The notes beneath the pieces are model-generated. The model searched no databases. It was not told the DNA's origin and saw only the letters and a list, made by a program, of their open reading frames with translations. Made by a program: the position numbers and the translations under genes. 36,837 nucleotides of DNA from Thermoplasmata archaeon (lineage in GTDB: Archaea; Thermoplasmatota; Thermoplasmata; Lutacidiplasmatales; UBA184): assembly GCA_030037955.1 (NCBI GenBank), contig JASHPT010000110.1, forward strand, positions 1 through 36,837, written 5' to 3'. Below are positions 26,561 to 36,774 of this stretch, piece after piece (within the stretch, counting starts at the first letter, position 1; every line of letters starts with the position of its first letter).

Positions 26561-26678
26561 GCCGAGGTGGCTCAGTCCGGTACGGCGCGAGTCTGGAAAG
26601 CTCGTGGCGGCATACGCCTCGGGAGTTCAAACGCCGGCATCGGCCGACCCGGTCCGGCGGAAATTCTCCCCCTCGGCG
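26561..26678 (+). tRNA. tRNA-Ser (anticodon GGA) interrupted by an intron in the T-loop
   Basis: Acceptor GCCGAGG pairs with CCTCGGC (26671-26677), discriminator G 26678. Anticodon arm CGAGT-CTGGAAA-GCTCG with GGA at 26595-26597. Variable arm GGCG-GCATA-CGCC. T-stem GGGAG (26621-26625) pairs with CTCCC (26666-26670) only after removing about 33 nt. No encoded CCA. Confidence 0.88.
26632..26664 (+). other. Putative tRNA intron at T-loop position about 59/60 (exact junction uncertain by 1-2 nt)
   Basis: GGGAG-TTC-AAA-CGCCGG...CCGGCG-GAA-ATT-CTCCC forms a bulge-helix-bulge-like fold: perfect 6-bp intron helix, TTC/GAA central helix, opposed 3-nt bulges AAA and ATT. Removal restores a 7-nt T-loop TTCAAAT. 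Confidence 0.82.
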
Positions 26679-33686: not shown

Positions 33687-34265
33687 ATGCTTCGAGCGAG
33701 TGCCAGATGTCCACGGATCTCCGGAACGCGACGACGATACGCCCACCGGCGCGGCGTCTCGGATATCGTCGCCGTCATCATGATGGTCGTCATCGTTGTC
33801 GTACTGGCGGCGGTGTTGTTCGTCATCATTCGGGGCTACACGGCGGGGACCGCTACAACACCCGGGCTGGGCACGGCCTTTGCCCTGGGGACCCCTCAGG
33901 AGTCCGTAGGCAAGACAGGAAGCATCGCCGCGTGCAGCGCCTCGCCATGCAACTTCTACAATCTCTCCGTCCAGGCCACTTCGCACACGCTCGAGCTGCA
34001 CGACATTGCGGTGGAGATCATCGCGGCCAACGGCAGTTTGGTTCTTCCACCGGGCGGAGTAGTAGTGGTCAACGCCACCAACCAGATCGTTGGTCAATCG
34101 ACCTGGGCCGGGACTTGGACCGTCGGCGGCTCCCTTCCCGTGACCTCCTCGTTCACGTTCGTGGTGTATACCTCCGGAGTCACACCGACGAGCCTCTCGG
34201 GTGAAACGCTCCGTTTTATCGGTGTCAGCGCGTACTCTGGGAACATCGAAGTGCACGTCTTCTAG
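33687..34265 (+). CDS. Archaeal type IV pilin/archaellin-like protein
   Basis: Class III signal peptide ...RRYAHRRG|VSDIVAVIMMVVIVVVLAAVLFVII followed by a low-charge beta-rich region. The cleavage position is inferred from FlaK/PibD-type rules. Confidence 0.85.
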   Translation: MLRASARCPRISGTRRRYAHRRGVSDIVAVIMMVVIVVVLAAVLFVIIRGYTAGTATTPGLGTAFALGTPQESVGKTGSIAACSASPCNFYNLSVQATSHTLELHDIAVEIIAANGSLVLPPGGVVVVNATNQIVGQSTWAGTWTVGGSLPVTSSFTFVVYTSGVTPTSLSGETLRFIGVSAYSGNIEVHVF

Positions 34266-34498: not shown

Positions 34499-34557
34499 GC
34501 AACCCCGCCCCCTACGGCTTTCTTAGGGGAGTGCCACTCCTCGGAGGAAAAACGCGA

Positions 34558-35205
34558 ATGAACATTTGGGGCAAGAACGAACGAAGCTGGCGCCGGAAGA
34601 ACAGGCGCGCGGTGTCGCCGATTATCGCTACGATCCTACTCGTCGCGATTACCGTCGTACTGGCCGCGGTCCTGTACATTCTGATCAGCCAGTACACAAA
34701 GAGCGGCGGGTCCGTGACGATCGGAAGCGCACTGGCCATCGGGAGCTCGAACGACGGCACGGGAACGGTCAACTACTACAACATGACTGTTGAGTCCGCT
34801 GGGTCGACGCTGACCATGAGCTCGTTCATCTTCGAGATCAGGTCCCCCACCGGAGCCATCACTACCGTCGGTAGCACCGTCGCGGGCGTCGCGATTACCA
34901 AGCTGTACATTCAGCTGGTGAGCCCTACCCTCAGCTACGCCGCGACCTACTGCGTGGCCGCCGGCGAAGCAGCGCCCCCAGCGGGACCGGCCTGTCCGAC
35001 GACTGGCGGCGGCGTGGGTTGGAGCTACGGCTCGGGCTGCACCTCCCCGGCCTTCACTACGGCCTGCAGCTCGACCAGCACCATGACCACTCAATACACG
35101 TTCTCGGTTCAGGTTGGACCGACCACGGTGAGCTTGAGCGGCTACAGCCTGGTTGCGCTCGGTCAGGGATCGTTCTCGGGTACGACCAGCGGCACGATCA
35201 CGTAA
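34558..35205 (+). CDS. Archaeal type IV pilin-like protein
   Basis: MNIWGKNERSWRRKNRRAVSPIIATILLVAITVVLAAVLYILISQY contains the classic archaeal pilin N-terminal motif (RRAVSPIIATILLVAITVVLAAVLY). Confidence 0.92.
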   Translation: MNIWGKNERSWRRKNRRAVSPIIATILLVAITVVLAAVLYILISQYTKSGGSVTIGSALAIGSSNDGTGTVNYYNMTVESAGSTLTMSSFIFEIRSPTGAITTVGSTVAGVAITKLYIQLVSPTLSYAATYCVAAGEAAPPAGPACPTTGGGVGWSYGSGCTSPAFTTACSSTSTMTTQYTFSVQVGPTTVSLSGYSLVALGQGSFSGTTSGTIT

Positions 35206-35319: not shown

Positions 35320-36774
35320 CTAGAGCGTGTCCTCGTCGGGGTGGGACGAGGGCTTCTTGGGGGTCTTTCGGGACCACAGGCTCCTCGACTTTCGGACGAC
35401 GGGCTTGGGCCGACCGCGGTTCCGGGCCGTCGCCGAGGCGGTCGGGGTCTTCCGGACCGGCGCTGGACGGGCTGCGGACGGCCGGCGGGCCGGAGCGGGC
35501 CGAGGCTCCTCGGATTCCTCGTCGTCCGAGGCGGGCGCGGCCAGCCATTCTCGGAGGCCGTGCCAACGGCCCCCCGGGGGGCGGTCCCTCCAGGGCGGGC
35601 CGCCATCCTCCTCCTGGTCGCGGCGTTCGGCGCGTTCCTCCTCCCGGCGCCGGGGGTCTTCGATGCCCTCGACACGGAACAGGTAGTGGATGCCGAACCC
35701 ACCGAGGACCACGGCGGAGATCGTCAGGGCGAGGAACTGCCAGGACTGCGCGGGCACCTCCTGGGCGTTCCCGTCGATGAGCAGCTTGAACGCGCCCACC
35801 CAGGGGACCATCCCGCGAGCGACGCCGATGACCCAGCCCGGAGCGACGAGCGCCGAGATGCCCCAGGCCTGGTCGGTCTTTCCCTGGGGGGGCGAGCCAG
35901 CGATGAGATTGTTGTCCCCCATCGTGATGAACCCGGAGTAGCGACCCAGGCCGCCCAGCGGGATGGAGACCGTCGCGTTCTTCCATCCCACGTGATAGAG
36001 GGTGATCGTGGTGATCAGCCCCGTCGATCCGCAGCCGGTGCTGCTGCCTTCGATGGAGTACAGGGCGCCCGGCTCGCTGCCGCAGGGCAGGCTGGCGAGC
36101 GCGGGGGCGGAGTAGTCCCCGGCGGCCGCATCCCACACGAGATACAGGATCGCGCGGTGGATCACCGGGGTTGCGGCGGTGTCCCCGTACGGATGGTACA
36201 GAATCACGTCTCCATACTCCCCGTAGGTCGAGAAGCCGCTCACCTCGCCGTCCACGTAGGTGACGACCGAGGATGGGTTGACCTTCTGCACCAGCACGAG
36301 GTCCCCCGTGTTGATCAGGCCCACAACATCCCCGTCGCCGTGCTGCATGCTGTCCGATTCCACGACGAAGATCGGTGGCCAGTTCGACGTGTAGGCAAAG
36401 AGACCGACCAGGAGCAGTACGATGATCGCAAGAGCGACCAGGGGCTCGAAGTACCAGCTGTCCCGGGCCCGGAAGAACACCGGCCGGCGGAGACTCGCGA
36501 AGAAACCGCCCGTGTCGTCGGGCTCTTTGGCCTTCCGCCGCTTCCGTGGCCGTTCCTTCTCCTCTTCGTCATCGAGGTCGGCGATGGTCCACGGCTTGAC
36601 CGGCCGCGCCGGCCGGCTGGAGGAGGAGCGACGGGCCCGGGGTGGCGGACGACGGGGAGGAGACTCCTCCTCATCTTCCACCGATCCCCCGGTCTCGTCG
36701 AGGACGCGTTCGTCTCCGTCGTCGTCCTCGACGAGGCCGTCCCCGAGGTCGTCCGGCTCTCCCCGCGGGGCCAT
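35320..36774 (-). CDS. Signal peptidase I (S26B/Sec11-like) with long charged N- and C-terminal extensions
   Basis: Catalytic Ser in FVVESDSMQHGD, His in PVIHRAI, Asp in ITMGDNN; TM segment near FEPLVALAIIVLLLVGLFAY and a second after the catalytic region (FLALTISAVVLGGFGIHYLF). Confidence 0.88.
   Translation of the reverse strand: MAPRGEPDDLGDGLVEDDDGDERVLDETGGSVEDEEESPPRRPPPRARRSSSSRPARPVKPWTIADLDDEEEKERPRKRRKAKEPDDTGGFFASLRRPVFFRARDSWYFEPLVALAIIVLLLVGLFAYTSNWPPIFVVESDSMQHGDGDVVGLINTGDLVLVQKVNPSSVVTYVDGEVSGFSTYGEYGDVILYHPYGDTAATPVIHRAILYLVWDAAAGDYSAPALASLPCGSEPGALYSIEGSSTGCGSTGLITTITLYHVGWKNATVSIPLGGLGRYSGFITMGDNNLIAGSPPQGKTDQAWGISALVAPGWVIGVARGMVPWVGAFKLLIDGNAQEVPAQSWQFLALTISAVVLGGFGIHYLFRVEGIEDPRRREEERAERRDQEEDGGPPWRDRPPGGRWHGLREWLAAPASDDEESEEPRPAPARRPSAARPAPVRKTPTASATARNRGRPKPVVRKSRSLWSRKTPKKPSSHPDEDTL

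Follow-up and report, generated by a model that had tools for sequence, protein, structure and literature searches.

Introns at tRNA positions 59/60 are already listed among the non-canonical intron sites of Archaea, for which Crenarchaeota and Nanoarchaeota are the rich sources, and the kind of intron described here is therefore not itself new (PMC4090602). The Thermoproteales (Crenarchaeota/Thermoproteota) carry short bulge-helix-bulge (BHB) introns outside the anticodon loop in several tRNAs per genome, much as we describe below; the euryarchaeal alpha4/alpha2 lineages are reported to have few tRNA introns, which are single and located at 37/38 (PMC4090602). A few Euryarchaeota, e.g. Methanopyrus kandleri, are on record as having tRNAs with several introns each (PMC4033280), and the Asgard groups Atabeyarchaeia and Freyarchaeia resemble the present genomes in being soil MAGs outside Thermoproteota with many non-canonical tRNA introns (PMC11291895); non-canonical abundance outside Thermoproteota is thus not new either. 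Unusual introns have been linked to loop-bearing, broad-specificity splicing endonucleases, and alpha'2 enzymes are considered narrow and strict for the canonical BHB (PMC6379350, PMC12397907). Among open-licence papers we found no report of tRNA introns like these in Thermoplasmata, and the word “intron” is absent from the main text of the Lutacidiplasmatales genome paper (PMC9287336).

The window (the whole 36,837-nucleotide stretch of DNA that was analysed) carries at 26561-26678 a tRNA-Ser(GGA) gene with a 33-nt intron at T-loop position 59/60. Inspection of the sequence agreed with an earlier description made from the letters alone (hereafter the sequence-only reading): the 5' part is a class II tRNA with anticodon GGA, and the contiguous T-arm cannot close. 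ARAGORN found no tRNA in the unspliced window, and the Rfam tRNA model scored the unspliced gene at 22.8 bits (cut-off: 29 bits) with its 3' half misaligned. The sequence-only reading had held that skipping 26632-26664 restores the T-stem, acceptor and discriminator; with this segment deleted, ARAGORN indeed called tRNA-Ser(gga) with all stems intact (T-stem: GGGAG/CTCCC; acceptor: GCCGAGG/CCTCGGC; G73; 7-nt T-loop). The features of the gene are as follows.

26561-26631, + strand: 5' exon of tRNA-Ser(GGA) (sequence; ARAGORN on the spliced form; kept in relatives)
26561-26567, + strand: 5' strand of the acceptor stem, within the 5' exon, which continues with the D-arm
26595-26597, + strand: anticodon GGA in the loop CTGGAAA, 5' exon, with the variable arm further 3'
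26621-26625, + strand: 5' strand of the T-stem, 5' exon
26626-26631, + strand: T-loop positions 54-59, TTCAAA, 5' exon
26626-26629, + strand: exon strand of the BHB central helix, U54 U55 C56 A57 (pairing in 57 introns; 57/-6 tracking)
26630-26632, + strand: 5' bulge AAC, predicted cut 26631/26632 (covariation-defined register and BHB cleavage rule)
26632-26664, + strand: intron, 33 nt, tRNA positions 59/60 (empty sites in relatives and paralogue; 67 MAGs; covariation)
26633-26658, + strand: inner hairpin of the intron (pairs 26633-26637/26654-26658 and 26640-26643/26649-26652; loop 26644-26648)
26659-26662, + strand: intron strand of the BHB central helix, G-6 G-5 A-4 A-3, the -6 layer here being an A.G mismatch
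26663-26665, + strand: 3' bulge ATT, predicted cut 26664/26665 (covariation-defined register and BHB cleavage rule)
26665-26678, + strand: 3' exon (pairs completely with the stem strands of the 5' exon; kept in relatives)
26665, + strand: T60, 3' exon
26666-26670, + strand: 3' strand of the T-stem, CTCCC, 3' exon
26671-26677, + strand: 3' strand of the acceptor stem, CCTCGGC, 3' exon
26678, + strand: discriminator G73, 3' exon

The anticodon loop is unbroken, and the insert thus does not lie at the canonical 37/38 position. Full pairing with the 12-mer of T-stem plus acceptor was found at just one other place in the window (73,674 positions, both strands), and when the DNA downstream was shuffled 200 times, such a pairing site fell within 60 nt twice. 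Chance is excluded because 67 MAGs share the exact insertion place and because the T-arm of four close relatives is the joined form that had been predicted, and we regard the observation of a T-loop intron in this gene as confirmed.

The exact 5'-exon pattern was found at about 80 loci (MAGs; GTDB species set). Most lie in genomes named Thermoplasmata archaea; Candidatus Lutacidiplasma silvani AcS3-62 and UBA184 are among the carriers, and both are assigned to Lutacidiplasmatales (Terrestrial Miscellaneous Euryarchaeota Group; PMC9287336). Judged from the names of these carriers, the window too belongs to Lutacidiplasmatales (Thermoplasmatota). Among these GTDB copies, 67, each in a public MAG, are interrupted at the same site (33 nt: 57; 32 nt: 8; 31 nt: 2); the four close-relative copies are empty, with a T-arm identical to the predicted joined GGGAGTTCAAATCTCCC; six more are uninterrupted with a slightly different T-stem; and the remaining three are truncated at the end of a contig. 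The paralogous Ser(TGA) gene (anticodon UGA) of the window's own genome likewise has an uninterrupted T-arm that reads GGGAGTTCAAATCTCCC. A 160-base DNA query matched 105 of the 106 genomes of the order, most matches in family f1 spanning the whole insert. In genera g1 and g3-g7 the exon is nearly invariant and the insert variable at an unchanging insertion point, and genus g2 has no insert and reads GGGAGTTCAAATCTCCCCCTCGGCG, which is the predicted joined product. The alignment of relatives that the sequence-only reading had proposed therefore gave conserved exons and no decay. An artefact of metagenome assembly might be suspected, as the window's genome is a 168-contig draft, but dozens of other MAGs show the feature with different intron sequences and the probability of this explanation is negligible.

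The inner intron helix is preserved by compensatory change. Across the 57 distinct 33-nt introns it is paired in 90.2% of cells (shuffle mean: 80.4%; maximum: 83.0%), and 48 cells are changed on both sides (shuffle mean: 15.9; maximum: 24), although these shuffles ignore relatedness and overstate the significance. When the partner strand was displaced by 1-3 bases, pairing fell to 32-53%; this control retains relatedness but favours the chosen structure. The same 57 introns define the central helix, since T54, T55 and C56 pair with intron positions -3, -4 and -5 in 57/57. At the next layer, in 38 introns of different tRNAs (from related genomes, hence not independent), G57 faces C(-6) in 16/16 and A57 faces G (17) or T (5) in 22/22, the layer being a G-C pair in 16/38 and an A-T pair in 5/38. 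Within the window's genome alone the 57/-6 combinations split 4 versus 7 with no exception (random-label probability: 1/330), and changes on both sides were found between genomes in four orthologous tRNAs: Arg(TCT), Asn, Asp and Arg(CCG). This tracking makes the central helix four layers deep (54-57 with -3 to -6), and the bulges in the general register are 58, 59, +1 and -2, -1, 60, so that two 3-nt bulges around a 4-bp central helix are the consensus of the 59/60 introns. The Ser(GGA) gene itself has three central pairs and an A.G mismatch as its fourth layer.

By the established rule, each bulge of a BHB substrate is cut just 3' of its second base, which in the four-layer register gives joining of 59 to 60 and a correct 7-nt T-loop. 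The last intron base differs among relatives and the T at 26665 is constant. The comparative evidence thus bore out the sequence-only reading: the genome is Thermoplasmata-like, and the intron in the T-loop has the geometry of a BHB. The interval 26632-26664 that it removed fits the four-layer register, but its bulges, AAA and ATT, lie one base out of register, and its central helix of merely 3 bp did not hold up, because the fourth layer of TTCA/GGAA covaries across tRNAs even though it is A.G here. The AAA/ATT register was rejected, as second-base cuts would leave a 6-nt T-loop and the 57/-6 covariation is ignored. Two other excisions were also discarded: removal of 26631-26663 gives an ARAGORN-valid tRNA with the T-loop TTCAATT, but relatives and the paralogue have TTCAAAT; removal of 34 nt (26631-26664) leaves a 6-nt loop.

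Introns at 59/60 were recognised among weak Rfam tRNA matches in 11 of the ~40 distinct tRNA genes found in the window's genome (about 27%), i.e. Ser(GGA), Asn(GTT), Arg(TCT), Arg(TCG), Glu(CTC), Ala(GGC), Gly(TCC), Ser(GCT), Gln(CTG), Ser(CGA) and Lys(TTT), and removal of the insert restored full T and acceptor stems in each of the 11. A complete-looking genome of the order (G041) has 11 T-loop introns; 6 were found in a genome of genus g2 (G006), and 3 and 5 in genomes from two further families of the order, where some are just 13 nt long. In other families of the class at least two T-loop introns were found, both in Lys(CTT), four genomes of such families being covered by the matches listed for them. 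Most of these intron-bearing genes are overlooked by ARAGORN and by the Rfam tRNA cut-off, and tRNA counts made with such tools would consequently be too low for such MAGs. Unlike the Thermoproteales, the host here belongs to Thermoplasmatota and has an alpha'2 enzyme without the crenarchaeal loop, the T-loop introns are all at 59/60 with a near-canonical BHB, and no tRNA was seen to have more than one T-loop intron, although one tRNA of the window's genome (Lys-UUU) has a D-loop insert besides its T-loop intron. The Asgard genomes have 92-95% intron-bearing tRNAs, more than half with multiple introns (PMC11291895), against about 27% and a single T-loop site here.

No further Ser(GGA) gene turned up in Rfam-based tRNA searches of the window's genome, which is about 90% complete, so that a missing second copy is conceivable; the tRNA inventories were compiled from Rfam searches and selected stretches, and genes may be missed. 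The Ser(GGA) gene of G041, which is listed as 100% complete, also bears the intron, and UCC codons are frequent (144 in a sample of 6,720). A decaying pseudogene, or a tRNA disrupted by an insertion and left unspliced, would account for the failure of standard tools and for the unpaired contiguous T-arm. We consider this highly improbable, given that full-stem exons are conserved across genera, the insertion point is common to the 67 MAGs, the intron helix covaries and ten other tRNAs of the same genome share the architecture. The sequence-only reading had named an intact second Ser(GGA), or decay in relatives, as the sign of a pseudogene; the searches of the window's genome and the relatives' exons gave neither.

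A single endonuclease locus was found in the window's genome, and one reading frame there contains two PF01974 repeats. Most genomes of the order and many genomes of the class likewise have two such repeats, usually in one frame. Over most of its length the protein can be aligned with the alpha'2 enzyme of Archaeoglobus fulgidus. Two lineage-specific loop inserts near the active site were considered. At the place of the crenarchaeal loop (CSL), YGSRIGHRLELSL runs colinear with the wild-type A. fulgidus sequence and has no counterpart of the extra loop residues in 3p1y, an A. fulgidus variant that we presume to be the CSL insertion mutant described earlier; for the ARMAN loop (ASL), the comparison with 4fz2 was at the level of match ranges, which are colinear. 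Judged from its sequence, the enzyme is of the two-repeat alpha'2 type without the crenarchaeal loop. This supplies the architecture that the sequence-only reading had proposed to identify, and its suggestion that a relaxed central helix implies a broad-specificity endonuclease is thus not supported. The alpha'2 enzymes of A. fulgidus and Thermoplasma acidophilum (PDB: 1RLV, 2OHC) are similar in having two repeats per chain, an alignable sequence, a catalytic-type C-terminal repeat and no crenarchaeal loop insert; they are described as narrow, from hosts with introns at the canonical position only, whereas many introns are at another position here. A gene for the ligase RtcB is also present, and the genome thus encodes both a predicted endonuclease and a predicted ligase for a BHB tRNA intron.

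We are nearly certain that the insert is a functional pre-tRNA intron at 59/60 of the only Ser(GGA) gene found; the alpha'2 enzyme would excise it and RtcB would join the exons. Once the gene is transcribed, the T-stem, the four-layer helix (54-57 with -3 to -6) and the intron hairpin would make up the BHB; the homodimeric endonuclease would cut after the second base of both three-base bulges and free the 33 nt; and RtcB would join positions 59 and 60 into the standard T-loop UUCAAAU. The reportedly strict alpha'2 type and the A.G fourth layer in Ser(GGA) count against this explanation, but the near-canonical BHB geometry of the lineage's introns may still suit a narrow enzyme. Alternatively, the insert could be retained and a mature tRNA with an extended T-arm hairpin used unspliced, in keeping with the predicted precursor fold, in which the T-stem forms and the intron hairpin lies beyond it. 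The elbow between T-loop and D-loop, an established part of tRNA structure, would then be lost, the close relatives and the paralogue have a standard T-loop, and the 54-57/intron pairing covaries in a BHB-like manner for which a retained arm would have no obvious use; we therefore give retention very little credence compared with splicing.

Lutacidiplasmatales appears not to fit the rule of few, single and canonical introns (PMC4090602), and the abundance of T-loop introns in an alpha'2 lineage conflicts with the stated rule of enzyme/intron co-evolution. We lean towards the view that this order of Thermoplasmatota expanded 59/60 introns while keeping a loop-less alpha'2 enzyme, by means of a near-canonical BHB and co-adaptation of the intron with positions 54-57. 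If true, an intron at a non-canonical position would need no enzyme of broad specificity, against the proposal that enzyme type and intron position evolved together, and Lutacidiplasmatales separates intron position from a relaxed BHB shape, two properties formerly tied together.

Several further observations were made by eye or in passing. The tRNA-Lys(TTT) of the window's genome (L090; G000:C26:450-800) combines an insert of 38 nt in the T-loop with another in the D-loop, and thus apparently has two non-canonical introns. D-loop inserts were also seen in L089 (G000:C1), L092 (G000:C94), L240-L243 (G001) and L251, L252 and L256 (G113, G111), in Arg-GCG, Pro-TGG and other tRNAs of this order and of other families of the class, suggesting from the gene sequences that D-loop introns may be widespread in uncultured Thermoplasmata. 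The 13-nt T-loop introns of L243, L245 and L249 (G001), with a 4-bp TTCA/TGAA central helix and hardly any inner helix, are possibly near-minimal BHB introns. L025 (G000:C106) was called Arg(TCG) by ARAGORN and is by eye better read as tRNA-Glu(TTC) with C33 and a putative canonical BHB intron (central helix: CCTT/AAGG; bulges: CGA and ACA). L091 (G000:C150) is a tRNA-Trp with a long intron in the anticodon arm; the tRNA-Trp intron of other archaea often bears a C/D box guide RNA. Identical tRNA-Ala(CGC) genes lie near contig ends (L008 and L009; G000:C76 and C99), possibly as an assembly duplication. In the window, translations inspected by eye gave two small proteins with pilin-like N-termini (33687-34265 and 34531-35205, both + strand), adjoining a signal-peptidase-like reading frame (35320-36774, - strand).
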